From: Collinsella tanakaei
Lineage (GTDB): Bacteria; Actinomycetota; Coriobacteriia; Coriobacteriales; Coriobacteriaceae
Reading direction: 5' to 3'
Length of the DNA: 44,523 nt
NCBI RefSeq assembly: GCF_016902615.1
Contig: NZ_JACJMB010000019.1
Span: 1-44,523 of the forward strand
The notes under the pieces were generated by a model, which did not search any database, was not told the DNA's origin, and saw only the letters and a list, made by a program, of their open reading frames with translations. This document shows, in pieces, positions 15,198-28,189 of the stretch (the stretch's first letter is position 1; the number at the start of each line of letters is the position of its first letter). The position numbers were made by a program, and so were the translations under genes.

Positions 15198-16046
15198 TCA
15201 AGCGCGGCTCGCCACCCACTCGAAGAGCTGCGCGGCGAGCCCGGGCGCGCCCATGCGGACAACCAGAAAGAACGTCACGCATGCCGCTTCGTCCTCGATC
15301 GGCACGATTGCGCGGCCGGCCGGTAGCTCGCGCTCCATATACGGCGCATCCGTCACGAAGGTGCAGTGCGGCGTCGTGCGCGCGAGCTGAGCGAACACCA
15401 TGCGGTCATCCTGGTCGATAAAGGTCGCACGCGGAATCGCACGCTCCACAAGGTCGCGCCAGAAGCCGATGTCCGTGAGGATCAGAAACGAATTGCCCGC
15501 AAGGTCCGCGAGGCGCACGGACTCGCGCGAGGCGAGCGGGTGGTTGGGCGGCAGCGTGACGGACAGCCGCTCGCGCATAAGCTCGCAGCTCCGCAGAAGC
15601 GGATTCGTCGGCATCGTCCGCACGATTCCCAGGTCAAAGCCGCCGTCAAGCACACCGCGCACCACCGCATCCCCTCCCACCGTCTCCGAGACGAGTGTCT
15701 CGCGCGGGAATGCCTCCGTCATGAGACCCGTGAGGCGCCAAAGCGGCGCCGGGGCGACCGTGCCCACGCGCAGGGCGCGCGCCCGCCGCGCCGCCGCGAG
15801 GACCGCATCGCGCATAAGGCGCTCGTCGCGCAGCAGCTGCCGCGCCCATTCCAGAGCGGCGCGGCCCGCCTCGTTGAGCTCCACATGCCGTCCCGAGCGC
15901 GCGAACAGCTCCGTGCCGAGCTCCTCCTCCAGCCGCCTCACCGACCTGCTGAGCGCAGGCTGCGACAGGTGCAGCTCGCGCGCCGCGGCGGACACGGTCC
16001 CCGTACGGGCGATGGCGTCGAGCTGGCGCATCTGCTCGAGTTCCAT
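15198..16046 (-). CDS. LysR-family transcriptional regulator
   Basis: A 282-residue regulator. The N-terminal helix-turn-helix is MELEQMRQLDAIARTG with TVSAAARELHLSQPALSRSVRRLEEELG (residues about 16-45). The effector domain follows from residue 90 with the conserved LRVGTVAP strand. GGGGGGAGGAG lies just before ATG 16046. It is divergent from two aldo/keto reductase genes, with a 21-base LysR-type palindrome in the 132-base gap; it therefore probably controls them. The effector is unknown. Confidence 0.93.
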   Translation of the reverse strand: MELEQMRQLDAIARTGTVSAAARELHLSQPALSRSVRRLEEELGTELFARSGRHVELNEAGRAALEWARQLLRDERLMRDAVLAAARRARALRVGTVAPAPLWRLTGLMTEAFPRETLVSETVGGDAVVRGVLDGGFDLGIVRTMPTNPLLRSCELMRERLSVTLPPNHPLASRESVRLADLAGNSFLILTDIGFWRDLVERAIPRATFIDQDDRMVFAQLARTTPHCTFVTDAPYMERELPAGRAIVPIEDEAACVTFFLVVRMGAPGLAAQLFEWVASRA

Positions 16047-16178: not shown

Positions 16179-17036
16179 ATGCAGTCGCTCACCCTTGCCA
16201 ACGGACGGGAGATCCCCCAGCTCGGCTACGGCGTCTACACCATGACCTCGGCCGAGGTCGAGAAGCACCTGCCTGAGGCCATCGCCGCCGGCTACACCCA
16301 CATCGACACGGCCAACGCCTACTTCAACGAGGTCGCCGTGGGCCGCGCCGTCAAGGCGTCCGGCGCGCGCCGCGAGGACCTGTTCATCACCACCAAGCTC
16401 TTCCCGCAGAGCTACCCCTACGAGCAGTGCAGCGTCGACATCGACGCCTCGCTCGAGCGCCTGGGCACCGACTACGTGGACCTCATGCTGTTCCACCAGC
16501 CCTACGGCGACTACGTCGAGGGCTGGCGCGCCATGGAGGAGGCGGTGGACGCCGGCAAGGCGCGCGCCATCGGCCTCTCCAACTTCCCCGTGCACAAGGT
16601 CGAGCAGATTCTCGAGGTCGCGCGCATCAAGCCCTCCGTCATCCAGGTGGAGATCAACCCCTATTGGAACCAGCATGCCCTGAAGAAGGCGCTCGCCGAG
16701 CGCGGCCTTGCCGACGCCGTCTTCGAGGGCTGGTACCCGCTCGGCCACGGCGACGAGGCCCTGCTCGCGGAGCCCGTGTTCCGCGAGCTCGCCGAGAAGT
16801 ACGGCAAGACCCCGGCGCAGGTGGTGCTGCGCTGGCACATCCAGGAGGGCAACGTCGTCTTCCCCACCTCGCGCAACCCCGAGCACATGGCCGAAAACAT
16901 CGACATCTTCGACTTCGCGCTCACCGAGGACGAGATGGCGCGCATCGACGCGCTGGCGCAGCACTGCTACTACACCGTCCCCGAGGAGGCGCCCGCATTC
17001 GTGCTGGCGCGCAACGACTACAGCAAGCAGGCGTAA
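16179..17036 (+). CDS. aldo/keto reductase (first of tandem pair)
   Basis: A 285-residue TIM-barrel NADPH-dependent carbonyl reductase of the AKR superfamily. The catalytic Asp and Tyr are in HIDTANAYFNE, the Lys in TTKLF and the His in LFHQPYGDY. IGLSNFP, VIQVEINPYW and the C-terminal PTSRNPEHMAENIDIFDF cofactor segment are all present. Length is normal and ATG 16179 has GAAGGAGG upstream. A second homologous gene follows after 36 bases on the same strand, and the divergent LysR gene probably regulates both. Substrate is not predictable. Confidence 0.93.
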   Translation: MQSLTLANGREIPQLGYGVYTMTSAEVEKHLPEAIAAGYTHIDTANAYFNEVAVGRAVKASGARREDLFITTKLFPQSYPYEQCSVDIDASLERLGTDYVDLMLFHQPYGDYVEGWRAMEEAVDAGKARAIGLSNFPVHKVEQILEVARIKPSVIQVEINPYWNQHALKKALAERGLADAVFEGWYPLGHGDEALLAEPVFRELAEKYGKTPAQVVLRWHIQEGNVVFPTSRNPEHMAENIDIFDFALTEDEMARIDALAQHCYYTVPEEAPAFVLARNDYSKQA

Positions 17037-17072
17037 AGGCACGCCACCAGAACGAACCCTGAAGGAGGGACC

Positions 17073-17951
17073 ATGGAGTACAGGATCCTCAACAACGGCG
17101 TGAAGATGCCGATGCTCGGCTTCGGTGTGTACCAGACGCCGCCCGAGGACACCGAGCGCTGCGTAGGCGAGGCGCTCGATGCCGGCTACCGCCTCATCGA
17201 CACCGCACAGGCCTACGGCAACGAGGCCGGCGTGGGCGCCGCCATCGCCAAGAGCGGCATCCCGCGCGACGAGGTCTTCGTGACCTCGAAGATCTGGGTC
17301 TCCAACATGAACTACGAGCGCGCGGCGGCCTCCATAGACAAGAGCCTGCGCGCCCTCGGCACCGACCACATCGACCTCATGCTGCTCCATCAGGCCATGG
17401 GCGACTACCCCGGCGCGTGGCGCGCGATGGAGGACGCCTACCGCGCCGGCAAGCTCCGCGCCATCGGCGTCTCCAACTTCTATCCCGAGCGCCTGGTGGA
17501 CATATGCGCCCTCGCCGAGGTGCCGCCCGCGGTCAACCAGATCGAGACGCACCCCTTCCGCCAGCAGCGCGCGGCGCACGAGACCATGCACGCACTCGAT
17601 GTGGCGCACGAGGCCTGGGCACCCTTTGCCGAGGGCCAAAACGGCATCTTCCACAACGAGGCGCTCGCCGGCATCGCCGAGAAGCACGGCAAGACCGTCG
17701 CGCAGATCGTGCTGCGCGCCCTCATCCAAAACGACGTCATCGTGATCCCCAAAACGGTACGCCGCGAGCGCATGGAGGAGAACATCGACGTCTTCGACTT
17801 CGAGCTCGACGGCGACGACCTCGCCACCTTCGCCGAACTCGACGACCCCGCCTTCCCGCCCATCTTCGACCACTTCGACGTGGGCACGGTCCGCTGGATG
17901 CTCGAGGAGCTCGTGCGCAACCAGCAGCTTGGCGGCGAGCCGCTGTACTAG
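17073..17951 (+). CDS. aldo/keto reductase (second of tandem pair)
   Basis: A 292-residue aldo/keto reductase clearly related to its upstream neighbour, with the same layout. The Asp and Tyr are in LIDTAQAYGNE, the Lys in VTSKIW, the His in LLHQAMGDYPG, then IGVSNFYPER, QIETHPF and IPKTVRRERMEENIDVFDF. The similar lengths and adjacency suggest an old tandem duplication; the sequences have diverged, so substrates may differ. GAAGGAGG precedes ATG 17073. A decayed ferredoxin-like piece of another reductase begins about 40 bases after its stop codon. Confidence 0.93.
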   Translation: MEYRILNNGVKMPMLGFGVYQTPPEDTERCVGEALDAGYRLIDTAQAYGNEAGVGAAIAKSGIPRDEVFVTSKIWVSNMNYERAAASIDKSLRALGTDHIDLMLLHQAMGDYPGAWRAMEDAYRAGKLRAIGVSNFYPERLVDICALAEVPPAVNQIETHPFRQQRAAHETMHALDVAHEAWAPFAEGQNGIFHNEALAGIAEKHGKTVAQIVLRALIQNDVIVIPKTVRRERMEENIDVFDFELDGDDLATFAELDDPAFPPIFDHFDVGTVRWMLEELVRNQQLGGEPLY

Positions 17952-19184: not shown

Positions 19185-19279
19185 GATTGCTCCTTTTGGC
19201 TGCGTGTCGCGTATTCTACCCACCGCGGCACGCGTCCAACATGAGGCGAACGTCCTGCCCCCTCCGGAGTATCATCGGG

Positions 19280-19642
19280 CATACGCATTTCGACGAGGCG
19301 GTCGCTGCGATCGCACTTGAGCATGCAGGCGCCATCTTGGGGAGGAGCAGGGCCATCATCAAGCAGAACCTCGCCGTTCTTGATGCTTGGATCGCAAGCG
19401 AGCCGCACCTCTCCTACGTCAAGCCCGAGGCGGGCACGACCGCCCTCGTGTACTACGACTACGCCATCGATTCGTATGCATTCTGCACCCGCATGATCGA
19501 GAAAACGGGCGCCATGGTAACCCCGGGAGATTGCTTCGAAGAGCCTCGAAGCATGCGCATCGGCTACGGCTATTCCGATAACCCCGAAGATCTGAAGAAG
19601 GGCCTCGAAGCAATTTCGCGCTATCTGCACACATTGGAGTAA
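19280..19642 (+). pseudogene. remnant: C-terminal part of a PLP-dependent aminotransferase
   Basis: About 120 residues match the C-terminal domain of class I/II (PatB/MalY-like) aminotransferases: HTHFDEAVAAIALEHAG, the NLAVLDAWI helix, KPEAGTTALVYYDY, TPGDCFEEPRSMRIGYGYS and a final SRYLHTLE. The large domain with the pyridoxal phosphate Lys is missing. The reading frame upstream (from 19187) has no similarity and runs into the EFR1 promoter region. I interpret it as a truncated, inactive gene. Confidence 0.8.
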
Positions 19643-20068: not shown

Positions 20069-20096
20069 TTGCAATATGCACGCACCCGAATACAAT
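20069..20096 (+). promoter_or_regulatory. bsh: promoter of bile salt hydrolase unit
   Basis: TTGCAA (20069-20074) and TACAAT (20091-20096) are separated by 16 bases in an AT-rich stretch. Transcription would start near 20103, giving a leader of about 135 bases before the gene. Confidence 0.6.
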
Positions 20097-20108
20097 AGCT
20101 CGTTGGAA

Positions 20109-20122
20109 GTGGTATATACCAC
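20109..20122. promoter_or_regulatory. palindromic operator candidate
   Basis: GTGGTATATACCAC is a perfect 14-base palindrome placed just downstream of the predicted transcription start of the bile salt hydrolase gene. A repressor bound here would block transcription. No regulator gene adjoins the unit, so the binding protein would be encoded elsewhere. Confidence 0.6.
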
Positions 20123-20238
20123 CGTTCACCCAAATCAAGATGCCATACACCGAATAATAAACTGCTATTTGGGGACAATCACTTCACATTCACAGCGAGC
20201 GCCAGCGGCACGGCCGCCGACGAGAAGGGAGCGGTCCG

Positions 20239-21201
20239 ATGTGTACAGGCATCCGCTTCACCGACAAGACAGGCGCAATGTACTTTGGACGTAACCTGGA
20301 CTGGACGCAGGGTTACGGAGAGAAGGTGGTCGTCACGCCCCCGGCTGCCGAGGTTCCGAGCGCCTTCGAGCGCCCGGACGATCCCAAGCAGGGCCATACC
20401 GTGATGGGTATGGGCATTGTCGTGGCGGGCATCCCGCTGTACTTCGACTGCGGCAACGACGCCGGCCTCGCGGTCGCTGGCTTGAATTTCCCCCAGAGCG
20501 CCCACTACGCTCCCGATGCCGTGGACGGCACCACCAACGTGGCCGCCTACGAGTTCCCCTTCTGGGTCGCGCGCAACTTCGCATCGCTCGATGAGCTGCG
20601 CGAAGCGCTGAAGCGCGTGACCGTGGTCGCCAAGCCCGTCAACGAGCAGCTGCCCGTGGCCAACCTCCACTGGCTCATCGGCGACGCCACCGGCAGCATC
20701 GTGGTCGAGTGCATGGCCGATGGCCTGCGCGTCTGGGAAGACGATGTCGACGCGCTCACCAACGAGCCCGATTTCGGCTGGCACCGTCAGAACCTGCGCA
20801 ACTACCTCATGCTTTCCGATGGCATGCCCGGCGAGTCGACCTGGGACAAGGCCGACCTCAAGCCCTTCGGCTCGGGCGGCGGCGTCCAGGGGCTGCCGGG
20901 CGATTACGGCGGACCGGCGCGTTTCGTGCGCGCGGCGTTCGTGAACGCGCACTACCCCGTCCAGGAGGGCGAGGCCGCCAACGTGACCCGTCTGTTCCGT
21001 ACGCTCGGTGCCGCGGCGGTGCCCGAGGGCGTCGCCAAGATGGGTAATGGCGCCTATGAGAAGACCCTCTACACCAGCTGCTTCTCCGCCCAGTCGATGA
21101 CCTACTACCACGCGACCTACGACGATCCGACCATCCACGCGTACCCGCTCGCAAACTGCGACCTCAGCGGTACGGCTCCGTTCATCGCCACCGCAGCTTA
21201 A
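20239..21201 (+). CDS. bsh: choloylglycine (bile salt) hydrolase
   Basis: A 320-residue Ntn-hydrolase of the choloylglycine hydrolase family, which cleaves glycine or taurine from conjugated bile salts in the cytoplasm. The N-terminus is MCTGIRF, so Cys2 becomes the nucleophile after Met removal. The other expected active-site residues fall at normal positions: Arg18 and Asp21 in GRNLDW, Asn83 in AGLNFP, Asn175 in TNEPDFGW and Arg228 in PGDYGGPARFVR. AGAAGGGAG lies upstream of ATG 20239. An MFS transporter gene starts 69 bases downstream, a likely operon. The family also has penicillin V acylases, but the residue set and gut-type context favour bile salts. Confidence 0.93.
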   Translation: MCTGIRFTDKTGAMYFGRNLDWTQGYGEKVVVTPPAAEVPSAFERPDDPKQGHTVMGMGIVVAGIPLYFDCGNDAGLAVAGLNFPQSAHYAPDAVDGTTNVAAYEFPFWVARNFASLDELREALKRVTVVAKPVNEQLPVANLHWLIGDATGSIVVECMADGLRVWEDDVDALTNEPDFGWHRQNLRNYLMLSDGMPGESTWDKADLKPFGSGGGVQGLPGDYGGPARFVRAAFVNAHYPVQEGEAANVTRLFRTLGAAAVPEGVAKMGNGAYEKTLYTSCFSAQSMTYYHATYDDPTIHAYPLANCDLSGTAPFIATAA

Positions 21202-21269
21202 TCGAACCCGCATCAACCGAATCCATCCGTCAAACCCCGGACCCTACCGCCCGGGGGAAGGGAGTGCAT

Positions 21270-22982
21270 ATGTCAAGCACGACCCCTGTCTCATCATCTA
21301 CCGGCAAGACCGCCGCAACAGCGGCTCCGGCCAAGACGCCGGCCGGTGCACAGGAGGTATTCCTCGTGCTGCCCATCGTCATCCTCGTCCTCGCCCAGAT
21401 GGGCACCACCGGCGACAACGGCGCGCTGTCGCTCGCCGCGTCGGCGCTCACGAAGGTCCTCGGGGCGACCACCTCCGACATCCAGCTCGCCAACATGATC
21501 TACCCGCTGGTCGGAGGCTCGTTCATGATCGCAGGCGGCCTCGCCGGCACGCTGATCGGCTGGCGCAACACCTTCCGCATCGGCGCTGCGCTCGCGGCCG
21601 CCGGCGAGGTTCTGTGCGCCCTCTCCCCCAGCATGACCATCTTCATCTGGGGTGGCCGCGTGCTCGTCGGCCTGGGCGCGAGCTTCCTCGTGCCGTCCCT
21701 GCTCGGCATCATTCCGTTTATCTACCACGGCACCAACCGCACCGTCGCCTTCGGCTGCATCGGCGCGGCATCCGGCCTGTCCGCCGTACTGCCGCTCGCG
21801 CTGGGCGTCGTCATGCAGGTAGCGGGCATGCGTGTCACCTTCCTGGTGCTCGCCGTCTACTTCCTCGGCGTGCTCGCGCTGTCAATCGGCATCCCCAAGC
21901 TCGACCAGCCGAAGGAAAAGTCCCACTTCGACGCCATCGGCGTCGCCCTTGCCGCGACCGGGTTCTTCCTGGTGCTTATCGGCCTTTCGAGCATCTCCTC
22001 CTGGGGTCTCATCAAGCCGATGCGCACCGCGCCGTTCACCCTGTTCGGCATCTCGCCGGCCATTCCGTTCATCGTGCTGGGCATCCTGGTCCTCATCGCG
22101 CTCGTGATCGTCGAGGGTCGCTTGGAGAAGCGCTACAGCCTGGTCGTGCTTCCGCGCTCGTTCATCACCACGCCGCAGGTGCTCGCGGGTCTGTGCGCCA
22201 ACGCGATCATGTTCTTCTTCATGGGAGCGCAATCGATTCTTATGTCCCCCTACCTTCAGCTTGTTGCTGACTGGACGCCTATCGAGGTCGGCACCATCTC
22301 CATCGCGACCGGCGTGCCCACCTTCGCGCTCGCGCTCGGCATCCCCAAGCTCTTCCCGAAGGCCAACCCGCGCCACGTAATCCAGCTGGGGTACATCGCC
22401 ATGGCGGTGGCGCTGGGCATCATGGCCTTCTCGGTGACCCTGGACGGCGCGAACCGCATCGGTGTCTACCTCGGTGCGTTCATGGCTGGCGTCGGCGCCG
22501 GCACCGTCTCGTCCCATGCGAGCAACGTCGTCGCCCTCGCGGTGAACGACCGCGACGCATCACAGTCCGGCGGCATCCAGAGCACCATGCGCAACGTCGG
22601 CCAGGCGATGGGCGTCGCCCTGCTCGGCGCGATCTTGATCTTCGGCATCAGCTCCACGCTGAGCACCGAGATGGCCTCCGACTCCTCGATCTCGCACGAT
22701 GTCGCCGAGCAGGTCTCCGAGCTCACCATCAACCTCGGCAGCAACACTGCCTTCGAGGATGAGATTGCCAACATCAAGATGAGCACCGACGAGCGCAACA
22801 CGCTGGTCAATCTGGAAGCCAAGGCACGTTTCGACTCGACGCGCATCGCCTACGCCGTGGGCGCCGTCATCGTGCTGCTGGGCCTGCTCACCACCCCGGC
22901 GATCAAGACGCTCCACAAGGACGACACGGCACCCGCCTCGAAGTCGGGCAGCGCCGCGGCCGCCCCGAAGAGCAAGAGCTGA
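21270..22982 (+). CDS. MFS transporter, 14-helix DHA2-like, beside bile salt hydrolase
   Basis: A 570-residue membrane protein with about 14 hydrophobic segments. A polar Ser/Thr/Ala-rich N-terminus of about 28 residues comes first. The motif-A region between helices 2 and 3 is replaced by AGTLIGWRNTFRIG, WGGRVLVGLGASFLVPSLLG fits the DHA2 motif B region, and an outer loop near residues 475-520 is rich in acidic and Ser residues. The C-terminal tail is Ser/Lys/Ala-rich. ATG 21270 is preceded by GGGAAGGGAG. Its location 69 bases after bsh suggests transport of bile acids, either uptake of conjugates or export of released acids; that is inference from position. Confidence 0.88.
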   Translation: MSSTTPVSSSTGKTAATAAPAKTPAGAQEVFLVLPIVILVLAQMGTTGDNGALSLAASALTKVLGATTSDIQLANMIYPLVGGSFMIAGGLAGTLIGWRNTFRIGAALAAAGEVLCALSPSMTIFIWGGRVLVGLGASFLVPSLLGIIPFIYHGTNRTVAFGCIGAASGLSAVLPLALGVVMQVAGMRVTFLVLAVYFLGVLALSIGIPKLDQPKEKSHFDAIGVALAATGFFLVLIGLSSISSWGLIKPMRTAPFTLFGISPAIPFIVLGILVLIALVIVEGRLEKRYSLVVLPRSFITTPQVLAGLCANAIMFFFMGAQSILMSPYLQLVADWTPIEVGTISIATGVPTFALALGIPKLFPKANPRHVIQLGYIAMAVALGIMAFSVTLDGANRIGVYLGAFMAGVGAGTVSSHASNVVALAVNDRDASQSGGIQSTMRNVGQAMGVALLGAILIFGISSTLSTEMASDSSISHDVAEQVSELTINLGSNTAFEDEIANIKMSTDERNTLVNLEAKARFDSTRIAYAVGAVIVLLGLLTTPAIKTLHKDDTAPASKSGSAAAAPKSKS

Positions 22983-22989
22983 CAACGCG

Positions 22990-23025
22990 TGGGGCCGTCC
23001 CCTTTTTCCGCCTGGCGGCCCCACC
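22990..23025 (+). terminator. hairpin after bsh-MFS unit
   Basis: GTGGGGCCG (22990-22998) pairs with CGGCCCCAC (23017-23025); the loop itself contains five T. It begins 8 bases after the MFS stop codon and probably ends the bsh transcript, although the T-run is in the loop and not after the stem. Confidence 0.55.
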
Positions 23026-23417
23026 CCCCCATGCCCCCGGAAGGCCTGCGGGATGCGCCATACCCACGCCATCAGCCATCTCTCCCGCACGTCTTCCGGG
23101 CGGCCCTCGACGACGGCGCGGCCCGTGCCTCGCGCCGTCGCCACTCCCTGCGCGCCGCCTCCGGTCTCTCGCCGGCGGCGGCGCGCTGTTTTGAGCCCCT
23201 TGATGATGAGGGCGCCCACGACCCCATCGATACATGCGGTCTGGAGGACCCACCTCTCGTCGCGGTCGCACCCATCAACATCCTACGGGAAAGCGCCGCT
23301 CGCAGCGCCTCGGTACACTTGCGCCGAGGCGCCAGGTCCCACCCGGACTCCATGCGGCATTCAGGTGTGGGCGGCAAGTGGGCCTCGAACGGCCACGCCG
23401 CCCATCGGCACCGTCGC
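23026..23417. other. gap between MFS and ABC transporter genes, no gene seen
   Basis: About 390 bases of GC-rich sequence. Open frames exist on both strands but show only Arg/Ala/Pro-rich composition with no recognisable domain. I see no promoter, repeat or RNA structure here that I can support. Confidence 0.6.
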
Positions 23418-25193
23418 CTACAGCGTCCAGTCCGCCGAGGCCGCCTGCAGCCGCACCATGCGGGCGAACAGGCCTCCGCGCGCCATGAGGTCTGCCGGCG
23501 CGCCCTGCTCGACCACGCGGCCGTAGTCCAGCACCACGACCTTGTCGGCCGCCATCACGGTGCGCATGCGATGGGCGATCACGATGACGGTCCTGCCCGC
23601 GAGCAGGCGCGAGAGCGCCTCCTGCACCTGCGTCTCGCTCTCCACGTCCAAGCTCGCCGTCGCCTCATCCAAAAGCACCACCGGTGCGTTCTTCAGAAGC
23701 GCTCGCGCGATGGAGATGCGCTGGCGCTCGCCGCCGGAAAGGCGCGCCCCGTTCTCGCCGATCAAGGTGGCGTAGCCCTCGGGCATGCGGTCGACGAACT
23801 CGTCGCAGTTGGCGGCGCGCGCCGCAGCCAGCACCTCCTCGTCTGTCGCGCCGCGCCGCCCCAGGCGGATGTTCTCCATCACGGTGTCGTCAAACAGCGT
23901 CACGTCCTGGAAGACCACGGAGAAGTCTCCGAGCAGCACCTCGGGGTCGACCGTTGAGACGTCTACCCCGCCCACGGACACGCGCCCCGCACTCGCGTCC
24001 CATAGACGACAGGCGAGTCTTGCGCACGTGGACTTACCGGAGCCGGAGGGACCCACGAGCGCGGTGACCTCGCCTTCGCGCGCCGTGAAGGAGACGTCCG
24101 AGAGAACCTGTTCGCCTCCCTTCTCATACGCAAAGGCCACGTGCTCGAACGCCACATCGTGCCCGATAGGCGCATAGGCCTTGCCGCCCGCCGCCAACGG
24201 CTCCTCGAAGAAGGCCTTCATGCGCCCGGCCGCCGTGCGCGCCGAGAACAGTTCCGCGATGAGCATGAGCGCCTGGTCGAAGGGCGCATAGATGCGGCTC
24301 ACCACGAGCAGGAAGCAGAACAGGGTGAGAAAATCGCACGATCCCTCGAGCACGAGCCCGGATCCGACCAGCAGCGTGGTGGCGAACCCCAGACGCAAGA
24401 CCACCTGTGCCCCGTTCACGCACACGCCGCAGGCGAGCTCGCTGCGCACGGCGGAGCGCTCGGCCGCATCGACGCTCCTATAGATGCCCTCGAGGTAGCG
24501 CTCCTCCTGGTTGGTGGCACGCACCTCGCGCACGCACTCGAGCGCCTCCTGGATGCGCTCGGAGCAGCGAAGACCCGCCATGCGCGTCCGGGCCATCAGC
24601 GGCTGGAGCCGGGAGCGCACGCCGAACAGCAGAAGCAGCGCCACCGGACCCGACCACATGGACGCCACGGCGAGCCGCCAGTCAAAGGCGAACAGGCACA
24701 CGAAGGCGATAGCCATCGTGGCGTAGGCTCCGTAGAGCTCGGGCAGCACGTGGCTGTAGGCGTGCTCGGTGGTCTTGACGTCGGTCATGAGGGTCTCGGT
24801 GAGGTCCGCGAGATCGCGTCGGCCGAAAAACGACAGCGGGAGCCTGCGCAGACGCTCGGCGAGCGCGATGCGTTGCCGTCCGCTCTCCTTGTAGATGACG
24901 CCGTACTGGTAGTAGTACTGGAAGCGCTCGCACACGAAAAGCACGATGAGGTACGCCGCGAGCACGACCGCCCAGGTCGCGACGGGGACGGACAGCGGGT
25001 CGAATCCGAGCGCGCCCCACGGCCCGAGCGTGACCGCGCTGCCCGCAAGCCGCGCCACGAGCGCGCTCATGATGATAAAGACGAATCCCACGCCCGCGAA
25101 CACCACGAGGTTCGTGACGGTCGTCCATACTGCACCCAGCTTGACGTTTCGCGCCCCCTCATCGGTCAGGGCATATTTCTCTTTGATGGACAT
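23418..25193 (-). CDS. ABC transporter, fused permease and ATPase (second subunit)
   Basis: A 591-residue half-transporter with an N-terminal six-helix domain (to about residue 320) and a C-terminal ATPase. Walker A is GPSGSGKST, the signature LSGGERQR, Walker B VVLLDEATASLD and the switch His is in IAHRMRT. The start codon directly follows the stop of the partner gene (TAGATG), so translation is coupled and the two products probably pair. The organisation of two ABC half-transporters beside an AraC regulator resembles ybtPQ/irtAB siderophore importers. It could also export a small molecule or peptide. Confidence 0.93.
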   Translation of the reverse strand: MSIKEKYALTDEGARNVKLGAVWTTVTNLVVFAGVGFVFIIMSALVARLAGSAVTLGPWGALGFDPLSVPVATWAVVLAAYLIVLFVCERFQYYYQYGVIYKESGRQRIALAERLRRLPLSFFGRRDLADLTETLMTDVKTTEHAYSHVLPELYGAYATMAIAFVCLFAFDWRLAVASMWSGPVALLLLFGVRSRLQPLMARTRMAGLRCSERIQEALECVREVRATNQEERYLEGIYRSVDAAERSAVRSELACGVCVNGAQVVLRLGFATTLLVGSGLVLEGSCDFLTLFCFLLVVSRIYAPFDQALMLIAELFSARTAAGRMKAFFEEPLAAGGKAYAPIGHDVAFEHVAFAYEKGGEQVLSDVSFTAREGEVTALVGPSGSGKSTCARLACRLWDASAGRVSVGGVDVSTVDPEVLLGDFSVVFQDVTLFDDTVMENIRLGRRGATDEEVLAAARAANCDEFVDRMPEGYATLIGENGARLSGGERQRISIARALLKNAPVVLLDEATASLDVESETQVQEALSRLLAGRTVIVIAHRMRTVMAADKVVVLDYGRVVEQGAPADLMARGGLFARMVRLQAASADWTL

Positions 25194-27044
25194 CTACGCC
25201 TCGCTCCCCTCGCCACTCGAGATCTTCCACGTGACCGCCTGCTCGTAGTCGGCCCACATGCGCGCATAGAGGCCGCCTGCCGCCACGAGCGCGTCGTGCG
25301 TGCCCTGCTCCACCGCGCGGCCGCGATCGAGCACGACGATCTTGTCGGCACCCCTCACGGTCGAGAGCCGATGGGCGACCATGAGCACGGTACGGGGCGC
25401 ACCGTCGCGCCCGCGCGCGAGGCGCTTGAAGGCGGCCTGGATCTTGACCTCGTTCTCGGGGTCGGCAAACGCCGTCGCCTCGTCGAGCACCACGATGGGC
25501 GCATCCTTCAAGATGGCGCGGGCAAGCATGAGGCGCTGGACCTCGCCGCCGGAGAGATGGACGCCCTCCGCTCCGTACACGGTGTCCACGCCGTCCGGCA
25601 GCTTGGCGAGGATGTCGTCGCATTGGGCGGCCGACAGCGCCGCCATCACCTCCTCGCGCGACGCGCCCGGACGCGCCGCCCGCACGTTATCCAGGATGGA
25701 CTGGGAGAAGAGCCGGTTGGCCTGGAACACGAAGGCAACGCGCTCCATGAGCTCCGAGGGGTCCATGGCGCGCACGTCCACCCCGCCCACGAGCACCCGA
25801 CCGGCATCCGCATCCCAAAAGCGCGGCACAAGGGAGGCGGCCGTGGTCTTGCCGCCGCCCGAGGGACCAACGAGCGCCACCGTCGAGCCGGCGGGCACCG
25901 TAAAGCTCACGTGGTCGAGCGCCGGTGCATCGGCCCCCTCGTAGGCGAAGCTCACGTCCTCGAACACCACGGCGTTATCGTGCGGGATGCGCGGCGTGGC
26001 GGGAGCGTCGATCACGGGCGCCGCAAGGACCTCCTCCACGCGCGACACCGCATCGGCAGCCGACTGGAACGCCTCGGACATGAACATCACGCGCGTCATG
26101 GCGGTGGGGATGACGGCGGAGAAGATGGCGTAGAAAGCGAAGTTCGTCGCAAAGTGCGCGATATCCGTCTCGCCGGGCGCCACCAACACCGCAACCGGCA
26201 CGAGAAAGACCGCCGCCGCGCTGATGGCCGTCAGCGAAAGCGACTGCGGCGTCTGGCACCACGTCACGGCGTAGTCCTGCGCGAGACGCGTAAACTCCTC
26301 GATGGCATCGTGAAACGCCCTGAAGGAATGGACCGTCTGCTGGAACACCTTCACCACCGGGATGCCGCGCACGTATTCGGTGCCCGTCTTGTTCATCTTC
26401 ACGAGCGACTCCATGTAGCGCATCATGAAGTCCATGCCGCGACCGCCCATCATGTAGAACATGCAGGCGAGACTTATCGCGACCGGGACGAGGCAGGCGA
26501 CGCCCAGGCGCCAATCGAACAGGAAGAAGAGCGCGAGCATGCCTGCGATCATGGCCACGCTGCCCGCGGTGTCCGGCAGCTTGTGGGCGAGCAGCCCCTC
26601 GGTCTCGGCCGCGCACCCGTCCACCACCCGGCGCAGCGCACCCGACGCATGCGTATCGAAATATCCGAGGCTCGTGTGCATGAGATGCTCGATCGTGCGC
26701 TTGCGCATATTGGACGCGCAGCGGAAGGCCGCGAGGTGCGTGCACATGAGTCCCGCGAAATACAGGGCGATGGATCCCACGGCGAAGGCGAGCGCCCACC
26801 AGCCGTATACAGCGCTGTTTGCCGCGGCGGCCCAGTTCGGCGCGACGGCGATGAGGTCGCGCGCGGCGAACCAGATGCACACGTACGGGCCGAAGCCCAA
26901 AAGCATCGAGATCGCCGAGAGCACGCAGCCCAGGTACGTGAGGGCGCGCCGCGATCCGGCGAAGGCGAGCAGCCGACCTACCGCGCCGCTCTGCCGGGAG
27001 CGCGCATCGGCAGGCGTCGTGCCCGCCCGTTGCGTCTCAGACAT
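25194..27044 (-). CDS. ABC transporter, fused permease and ATPase (first subunit)
   Basis: A 616-residue half-transporter, first gene of the pair. The membrane domain covers about residues 25-330; the ATPase has GPSGGGKTT, LSGGEVQRL, IVVLDEATAFADPENE and VAHRLST. The DEATAFADPEN form of Walker B is typical of the YbtP/YbtQ and IrtA/IrtB group of siderophore-type transporters, which use an exporter fold for import. GAGGAGG lies 5 bases before ATG 27044. The gene is divergent from an AraC regulator. An iron or metallophore role is an inference; no biosynthetic genes are nearby. Confidence 0.92.
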   Translation of the reverse strand: MSETQRAGTTPADARSRQSGAVGRLLAFAGSRRALTYLGCVLSAISMLLGFGPYVCIWFAARDLIAVAPNWAAAANSAVYGWWALAFAVGSIALYFAGLMCTHLAAFRCASNMRKRTIEHLMHTSLGYFDTHASGALRRVVDGCAAETEGLLAHKLPDTAGSVAMIAGMLALFFLFDWRLGVACLVPVAISLACMFYMMGGRGMDFMMRYMESLVKMNKTGTEYVRGIPVVKVFQQTVHSFRAFHDAIEEFTRLAQDYAVTWCQTPQSLSLTAISAAAVFLVPVAVLVAPGETDIAHFATNFAFYAIFSAVIPTAMTRVMFMSEAFQSAADAVSRVEEVLAAPVIDAPATPRIPHDNAVVFEDVSFAYEGADAPALDHVSFTVPAGSTVALVGPSGGGKTTAASLVPRFWDADAGRVLVGGVDVRAMDPSELMERVAFVFQANRLFSQSILDNVRAARPGASREEVMAALSAAQCDDILAKLPDGVDTVYGAEGVHLSGGEVQRLMLARAILKDAPIVVLDEATAFADPENEVKIQAAFKRLARGRDGAPRTVLMVAHRLSTVRGADKIVVLDRGRAVEQGTHDALVAAGGLYARMWADYEQAVTWKISSGEGSEA

Positions 27045-27070: not shown

Positions 27071-27099
27071 TTGCTTGACGTTCCGCCGCACGGTATCAT
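27071..27099 (+). promoter_or_regulatory. candidate promoter of AraC gene
   Basis: TTGCTT (27071-27076) and TATCAT (27094-27099) are 17 bases apart in the divergent gap. The -10 is good, the -35 is weak. Confidence 0.4.
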
Positions 27100-27172
27100 G
27101 CGAACACAGAAATGTTTGCTTAATGCAACTTATGCGCGACGAAACGGCAAGAACGAAGGACGGTTCTTCAAC

Positions 27173-28189
27173 ATGAAGGGTGCATCCGACATCGCCGGCG
27201 AGCTCCTTGCGCTCTGCCTCCCCCAGGCAGTACAGCTCGGCATCCGGCTTGAGCGGCACGGCGCGTTCTGGACAGGCGAAACGACAGGATCGGCCGCCGA
27301 CGGCACGATGTGGTTCGCCTCGCCGACGGCGGGCTGCCTCGTGCTCTACCACGATGTGATCCCGCGCGCCGACATGCACCTTCAGGAGGAATCCACCGGA
27401 CCGTATGCCTGCGCGTGCATGCTGGAAGATGCCTCCTCTGCCTGCTCGCGCGCCTGCGGGCTGGCGCTCAGGCCCGTCGGCGCGCGGGGCGGGGCCGCTC
27501 CATCGGAGCTCGCGACGTTTGTCGAGCGCCGGCCGCACACGCTCACCAGTCCCCTGCACGCCGGTGAGCGCTACCGCTCGAGCTCCATCATCCTGCTCCC
27601 CGACTTCTTCGATGCGCTCGAACGGCGCTATCCCGGGGAGTTCCGGGGCACCTTCGCCCTGTTCGACACCTGTCTCGGCGTGAATGAGAGCATAGAGATC
27701 AGACATGCCCTCGGCAAGATCTCCCGTCGGCCGCCCACGGAACCGGGCGGCACCCTCGCGCTGCGCGCCGCCGTGGAAGGGCTCGTGGCGTCGCTTGCGA
27801 CGCGTCATGACACCTTGGCGCATGACGGGGATGCCGCTGAGCTGGTAGACCAGGCGAGGCGCCATATCGCGCGAGCCTTCGACGACAGGGCGGCTCCGCC
27901 TTCGGTCGATGGGCTCGCGAAGGCGCTTTTCGTCAGCCGATCTCGGCTCTGCGCCGCATTCCAGCGCGAAACCGGACGGGGCCCCGGTTCATTCATACGC
28001 GAGGCGCGTATCGAGCGCGCCCGCACTCTGCTGGGCACCACCGGCCTCGCCATAGCGGACATCGCCAAGATGCTCGGCTATCCCGGGCTGTCGGCATTCG
28101 ACCACGCCTTCACCAGGGCAACCGGCCTCTCCCCGAGCGCCTGGCGCAACCAAAGGGAATGCGTCTCGCCGCAGCCGAGAATCCTGTGA
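27173..28189 (+). CDS. AraC-family transcriptional regulator
   Basis: A 338-residue regulator. The C-terminal 100 residues carry the two AraC helix-turn-helices: SVDGLAKALFVSRSRLCAAF and AIADIAKMLGYPGLSAFDHAF, ending in ATGLSPSAWR. The N-terminal domain has no recognised ligand motif but contains several Cys (CACMLEDASSACSRAC), which might bind metal. ATG 27173 is chosen by frame and length; AAGGA lies 13 bases upstream, which is far, so the start could be different. It is divergent from the paired ABC transporter genes and is their likely activator, as YbtA is for ybtPQ. Confidence 0.9.
   Translation: MKGASDIAGELLALCLPQAVQLGIRLERHGAFWTGETTGSAADGTMWFASPTAGCLVLYHDVIPRADMHLQEESTGPYACACMLEDASSACSRACGLALRPVGARGGAAPSELATFVERRPHTLTSPLHAGERYRSSSIILLPDFFDALERRYPGEFRGTFALFDTCLGVNESIEIRHALGKISRRPPTEPGGTLALRAAVEGLVASLATRHDTLAHDGDAAELVDQARRHIARAFDDRAAPPSVDGLAKALFVSRSRLCAAFQRETGRGPGSFIREARIERARTLLGTTGLAIADIAKMLGYPGLSAFDHAFTRATGLSPSAWRNQRECVSPQPRIL

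Follow-up and report, generated by a model that had tools for sequence, protein, structure and literature searches.

A 44,523-nucleotide contig of Collinsella tanakaei (NZ_JACJMB010000019.1 of assembly GCF_016902615.1, here called the window) encodes a bile salt hydrolase (BSH) followed by a transporter of the major facilitator superfamily (MFS), and the comparison with related genomes supports the view that the two genes form a conserved, lineage-restricted BSH-MFS unit. Because this linkage is conserved, confined to one lineage and combined with a short spacing, the transporter appears to be tied to the hydrolase. A sister line of the transporter adjoins a hydrolase gene of another family. 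Since gene order binds the transporter to one hydrolase and its sister line to another, we regard the MFS protein as a possible importer or substrate/product exchanger, feeding a cytosolic BSH in a bicistronic unit for bile salt utilisation or detoxification, by analogy with the CbsT-BSH systems; we hold the chances of this reading to be about even. A preliminary description of this DNA had proposed a compact bile-response unit under a palindromic operator. Its observations were confirmed in part: the two genes, the motif features and the unit stood, and the operator did not.

The hydrolase, the transporter and their linkage

The source genome (2.45 Mb, 99.96% complete) is one of 43 genomes of the genus in the search. 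The unit and its edges consist of the following features.

20239 to 21201, plus strand: bsh, a bile salt hydrolase (choloylglycine hydrolase) of 320 amino acids with a Cys2 nucleophile, assigned from PF02275, NF038245, solved matches and alignment.
21202 to 21269, plus strand: spacer with a GC-rich hairpin (by folding) just 5′ of the ribosome-binding site of the MFS gene, without a T-run.
21270 to 22982, plus strand: MFS transporter of 570 amino acids, with 14 helices and a DHA2 fold, in the BSH-linked clade, assigned from PF07690, the tree, an AlphaFold2 model and PDB matches.
22986 to 23035, plus strand: GC-rich stem-loop region with a T-run past the MFS stop codon (fold prediction), a possible operon end.

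The BSH, the only match to PF02275 in the source genome, scored 277.7 bits against this family and 370.3 bits against the equivalog NF038245 (N-terminal nucleophile (Ntn) choloylglycine hydrolase), above the curated cut-off of 350. Residues C2, R18, D21, N83, N175 and R228, which we take to be the catalytic positions known from the literature (Cys2, Arg18, Asp21, Asn82/83, Asn175 and Arg228), do not vary among the 12 BSHs aligned, and the active site is thus intact, as had been proposed. The window enzyme is predicted to split bile salts. Ntn hydrolases with the nucleophile at residue 2 and without a leader are cytosolic; because the enzyme has a Cys2 nucleophile, starts with MCTG and shows no leader peptide by eye, it is expected to act in the cytosol. 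Conjugated bile salts are charged and poorly permeant, and therefore a cytosolic BSH would need a carrier for its substrate.

Among the best solved matches, both over the full length, were the BSHs of Arthrobacter citreus (8vrx, E 7.7e-112) and Bifidobacterium longum (2hez, E 9.6e-107), with which the window BSH shares the catalytic residues that are identical in the aligned relatives. Its selectivity-loop position reads GSG, which has also been reported for the BSH of A. citreus. According to two papers, GXG in this loop goes with taurine preference in Lactobacillaceae (PMC10066039), yet the A. citreus BSH has GSG and prefers glycine (PMC11736000). As the two papers disagree on GSG, a prediction of glycine or taurine preference from the loop was dropped.

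When the genomes were scanned for relatives of the BSH, the best 80 of 115 were kept as named loci together with flanking DNA of at most 4 kb per side; 50 of them are at least 69% and 30 (L052-L081) at most 58% identical to the window BSH. In 39 of the 50 closer loci, an MFS gene was found directly 3′ of the BSH gene, on the same strand and at a distance of about 0.5 kb at most. In contrast, none of the 30 distant loci, which include Arthrobacter, Actinomyces and one Bifidobacterium, has such an MFS gene in up to 4 kb per side, although the downstream DNA of one of them (L061) extends over no more than about 0.2 kb. The gap is 68 bp in the window; of the 39 loci, 33 had a called start, and these gave a median of 67 bp. 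At least four of these starts are probably internal, so that the true gaps there are shorter. GC-rich hairpins lie in the spacer of L003, L004 and L050 as well.

The linkage was also seen from the side of the transporter. The order-wide sample comprised 297 genomes, 67 of them with an MFS match at E ≤ 1e-60, and the adjacency count used 61 of 63 BSH rows, two fragments being left out. A BSH lay immediately upstream in 44 of the 52 listed MFS rows at 64% identity or more, and in a tree of 32 proteins all 19 rows of BSH-linked transporters fell into one branch with 100/100 support. The earlier statement that the MFS gene follows bsh as a unit is borne out by these counts, and the two genes are presumably co-transcribed. 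The rule-based terminator scan called no terminator at 22986-23035. The genes flanking the pair vary across 52 clustered loci. At L034, L040, L041, L043, L044 and L045, where the BSH has no adjacent MFS gene, the downstream genes resemble, by eye, a CsoR-type copper regulator and a metal-transporting P-type ATPase.

The MFS gene starts with ATG at 21270 and its product scored 76.9 bits against PF07690. Its AlphaFold2 model, built from a 28-row alignment (A4) with a mean predicted local distance difference test score of 79.8, has 14 long helices, one of them broken, and the best PDB matches were QacA, EmrB, a mycobacterial MFS protein (MHAS2168) and EfpA. The template-modelling scores by target were 0.79 for QacA, 0.82 for EmrB and 0.76-0.78 for EfpA. 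Thus, the protein resembles the DHA2 drug exporters QacA, EmrB and EfpA in its 14 helices and its fold, whereas it differs from them in low identity (15-21%), in a score of 67.3 bits against TIGR00711 (EmrB; DHA2 family model), far under the cut-off of 230.2, in a motif A (GGLAGTLIGWRNTF) that is not acidic, and in its linkage to a hydrolase. The acidic residue carried by the DHA2 motif A consensus is absent in all 28 aligned rows, and D49 in helix 1 is invariant in the same number.

Residues 471-505, the loop that connects helix 13 with helix 14, include seven D/E and one K/R, and this loop has a net acidic character in all 24 BSH-linked rows. QacA-type exporters carry a hairpin between helices 13 and 14 too, and because the acidic loop is located at this hairpin of the QacA/EmrB-type fold, it does not separate the protein from drug exporters. 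The preliminary description had seen in motif A and the acidic outer loop signs of a dedicated bile acid carrier; both features are as described, but bile specificity is demonstrated by neither.

Descent of the pair and its sister transporter line

The identities of the BSH-MFS pair run opposite to those of RpoB. The RpoB of the window was 97.2%, 94.2% and 93.5% identical to that of the congeners G020, G041 and G040, 90.8% to that of G064 and 87.2% to that of G059, and 79.5% and 78.7% to those of G213 and G519, which belong to another family. For the BSH, the corresponding values were 73%, 77% and 78% in the three congeners, 82% in G064, 86% in G059, and 86% and 83% in the other family. For the MFS protein, they were 71%, 69% and 68% in the congeners, 82% in G059, and 84% and 82% in the other family, and G064 has only a distant MFS (42%). 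The pair is therefore closer to pairs of another family than to those of congeners, which indicates that it probably moved between families. The alternative is hidden paralogy with loss, which is favored by three genomes (G037, G057 and G557) that hold two window-type BSHs each. One further feature adjoins the unit.

19187 to 19642, plus strand: aminotransferase class I/II remnant, limited to the C-terminal part, immediately before the unit and a possible edge scar (PF00155 positions 248-361 of 361, 21.8 bits).

A truncated aminotransferase at this position would fit an insertion edge.

MFS rows that are 54-62% identical to the window MFS lie beside no BSH. Instead, in 17 of 19 the next gene downstream encodes a relative of the L116 amidohydrolase (PF07969), and the remaining two are in G234, where the region is partly masked and the end of an amidohydrolase is visible downstream of each. 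Conversely, an MFS gene is directly upstream of 19 of the 22 amidohydrolase rows counted (at least 44% identity, excluding two C-terminal fragments of G306 and the rows at 31% or less). Among MFS rows at 37-43% identity, two of 20 precede an amidohydrolase. PF07969 was shown by Pfam for L116 and for L118, the latter family-scanned in part.

The gene order in six loci (L116-L119, L136 and L137) is an MFS gene (MFS1), the amidohydrolase gene, a regulator-like gene in divergent orientation and another MFS gene (MFS2), and the MFS1-amidohydrolase locus is present both in the genus of the window and in further families of its order. In L116 the regulator carries an N-terminus of HTH_11/Mga type; it scored 61.8 against the AcpB/EbpR/MafR model, whose cut-off is 130. 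Beyond this phylum, a plasmid of Plesiomonas shigelloides from penguin faeces (L125; NZ_CP062197.1, 6052-12625) carries, one after the other, a winged-helix regulator, an MFS gene (37%), an amidohydrolase gene (28%, over part of the length) and a further MFS gene. The MFS1-PF07969 locus thus resembles the window unit in its related transporter and in the adjoining hydrolase gene, but it differs in the enzyme family, in having its own divergent regulator and a second MFS gene, and in a recurring upstream inverted repeat.

This repeat, TTNCCGT....ACGGNA with arms of at least seven bases, was found upstream of MFS1 in 7 of 18 stretches (L117, L118, L136, L169, L171, L172 and L173), and imperfect forms were seen by eye or from half-sites in at least five more (L116, L119, L178, L179 and L181). 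Repeats of another form lie upstream of MFS1 in L174-L177, and none was found in L170 and L180. The repeat is a candidate operator of the amidohydrolase operon. Between its half-site TTACCG and the TTTACCGA repeat that precedes window-type BSHs there is a likeness, which may be due to chance.

In the tree of 32 proteins, the BSH-linked branch arises among the amidohydrolase-linked rows (support 90/85 and 89/89, not starred), with an unsure root and long branches, and this position suggests that the transporter line changed its hydrolase partner. A wider proposal, which we consider speculative and on the whole doubtful, is that the MFS protein founds a family of Coriobacteriia transporters importing amide-linked host conjugates in which the hydrolase was swapped: an older line would feed the PF07969 enzyme, a metal-dependent amidohydrolase of the cytosol with an Mga-like regulator and a palindromic operator of its own, and a younger line would have been recruited to BSH and passed as a cassette from one family of gut bacteria to another. 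Should this hold, bile acid amidates or other N-acyl conjugates would be the substrates of the PF07969 enzyme, a hydrolase so far unrecognised in this role and from a family unrelated to BSH. Among the papers listed on the subject, none describes an amidohydrolase of bile acids in Coriobacteriia in its title or visible abstract.

The upstream region and the neighboring genes

The region upstream of bsh was aligned between the window and its seven nearest relatives, and the identity values below are the mean to the window and the majority.

20069 to 20096, plus strand: sigma-70-like match TTGCAA-16-TACAAT, without conservation in relatives (promoter scan and alignments).
20109 to 20122, no strand assigned: perfect palindrome GTGGTATATACCAC, matched exactly nowhere else in the genome, not conserved and probably a chance one (sequence, chance model and alignment).
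20122 to 20130, plus strand: conserved repeat 1, CCGTTCACC, in relatives CCGTTTACC, CCGTTTGCC and others; it overlaps the last base of the palindrome (identity 0.81, majority 0.86, seven relatives).
20142 to 20153, plus strand: conserved repeat 2, GCCATACACCGA, in relatives CCATTTACCGA or CCATCTACCGA; 21 bp from repeat 1 (identity 0.82, majority 0.94).
20170 to 20192, plus strand: block TGGGGACAATCACTTCACATTCA, in relatives such as GGATACAAGGACTTCATCTTCC, a tentative core promoter (identity 0.60, majority 0.78).

The preliminary description had placed a 14-base palindrome just after a predicted transcription start and taken it for the operator. The palindrome is perfect, AT-centred and upstream of bsh, and the probability of at least one such 14-mer in the 596-base upstream stretch was 4.5%. 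In addition, a partial dyad (four of seven pairs) is kept in two of the seven relatives, and two further places in the genome match it at two mismatches, against one for a reversed control pattern. These points would favor a genuine repressor operator newly evolved in this species. However, the window contains nine perfect 14-mer palindromes where 8.4 are expected (first-order model, mean of 20 runs), the genome holds only the one exact copy, and none of the seven relatives has a perfect form (4, 1, 4, 1, 1, 1 and 1 of the seven pairs kept), five of them keeping one pair. Nor was such a palindrome present upstream of the 50 named BSHs, for which stretches of at most 260 bases were covered, though some of these have other inverted repeats, a few of which are shared by close relatives. 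The sister loci, in contrast, do show a recognisable and recurring operator-like repeat. Being neither enriched, recurrent in the genome nor conserved, the palindrome was rejected as a supported operator; it is real yet weak in this role and probably a chance one, and we consider a newly evolved operator very unlikely. A single perfect palindrome is a poor ground for naming an operator. The promoter match at 20069-20096 was likewise present but not kept in relatives, and it was rejected as a conserved feature.

The two direct repeats, 21 bp apart, were better conserved than the palindrome, whose left half has an identity of 0.41 and whose right half has 0.67 with a majority of 0.80. When the self-similarity of 35 of 43 other upstream regions was determined (eight near-copies dropped; 19 lags, single-base shuffles, related sequences), the excess was largest at lag 21 (28 versus 9.8, standard deviation 5.3), followed by lag 11 (25 versus 12.1, standard deviation 5.3). 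This is suggestive of direct repeats in helical phase, a pattern known from OmpR/PhoB-type regulators, and the pair at 20122-20153 is a candidate regulator site. The block at 20170-20192 resembles, by eye, the upstream regions of more distant BSHs, but the right half of the palindrome reaches at least the same identity (0.67 versus 0.60; majority 0.80 versus 0.78), and its assignment as the core promoter is tentative.

As the preliminary description had stated, no regulator is encoded at the unit: the nearest recognised regulator genes in the window, of LysR type (15198-16046) and AraC type (27071-28189), are each more than 4 kb away. Regulator-like open reading frames seen by eye near the unit in relatives (GntR-like in L002 and L004, LysR-like in L025) do not recur beside it, and no conserved regulator was seen there among neighbor clusters that were mostly judged by eye, without a family scan. 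Elsewhere in the window, two tandem aldo/keto reductase genes (16179-17951) lie beside the LysR gene, which is on the other strand, and two ATP-binding cassette exporter half-transporters in tandem (23418-27044, minus strand) are divergent from the AraC-type regulator gene on the plus strand.

Proposed working, alternatives and meaning

In the proposed working, the MFS protein would bring conjugated bile salts to the cytosolic BSH, which would cut the amide bond of the imported conjugate, and the carrier would also let out the free bile acid, either by exchange or together with protons. Transcription would more likely be controlled by an unlinked regulator at the direct repeats of 20122-20153 than at the palindrome. 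The nearest known counterpart is the cbsT1-cbsT2-cbsH cluster of Lactobacillus johnsonii 100-100/N6.2, where MFS transporters also stand in tandem with a BSH; in published reports, CbsT2 is described as a taurocholate:cholate antiporter paired with BSH (PMC11133329, PMC3872040, PMC4207937), and bile lowers the cbsT and bsh transcripts of strain N6.2 (PMC11133329). L. johnsonii has two transporters before the BSH whereas the window has one after it, and the likeness considered here is one of gene arrangement and described function. The MFS search of plasmid records returned 29 records, none of them from Lactobacillaceae. BSH relatives were found in 162 plasmid records, and the two Ligilactobacillus plasmids inspected had no MFS annotated within 4 kb, in an incomplete gene table.

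Several observations weigh against an exchanger that serves the BSH. The MFS gene is missing next door in 11 of the 50 closer BSH loci, and 8 of the 52 MFS rows at 64% or more (seven full-length, one fragment) have no adjacent BSH. The seven full-length rows come from one genus in which the BSH is on another contig; in five of these loci, which were inspected, no BSH was present in the fetched stretch. The spaced repeat pair was found once in the genome, at the window locus, and no wider regulon was seen. Finally, the nearest solved folds are those of drug exporters, and this is also what favors a strong rival, namely that the MFS protein is only an efflux pump of the QacA/EmrB type, expelling free bile acids made by the BSH or bile generally, while conjugates enter otherwise. 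The invariant D49 would fit proton coupling in the DHA2 style. Active bile extrusion has been shown for the bifidobacterial BL0920 and Ctr, according to one report (PMC3872040). On the other hand, the TIGR00711 score and the non-acidic motif A speak against a typical pump, and linkage to one BSH line and one amidohydrolase line exceeds what a general pump would need. We rate efflux alone as a real possibility, although clearly short of even. A further alternative is that the protein carries the released amino compound (glycine or taurine, for export or import) or N-acyl amino acids generally, and not bile acids. The sister line, which serves a PF07969 amidohydrolase, could be read in this way, but 14-helix DHA2 folds are typical for larger amphipathic molecules and not for glycine or taurine, and we consider such a carrier improbable. 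The exchanger is favored by the association of the sister line with another hydrolase family, which indicates that the transporter line tracks hydrolases.

Operons of BSH and MFS genes are already known in lactobacilli, and the window unit adds another case. Among the publications listed on BSH with Collinsella, Olsenella, Coriobacteria, MFS or antiporters, none treats this unit in its title or visible abstract. Specialists might be surprised mainly by the change of partner to a metal-dependent hydrolase family, a point that lends itself to testing. Intracellular BSHs need delivery of their substrate, and little is known about the bile acid carriers that gut anaerobes possess. With its place behind one BSH lineage across Coriobacteriia, the transporter line is a testable candidate for such a carrier, and its sister line directs attention to a second hydrolase, a metal-dependent one, at whose substrate the shared carrier could hint.

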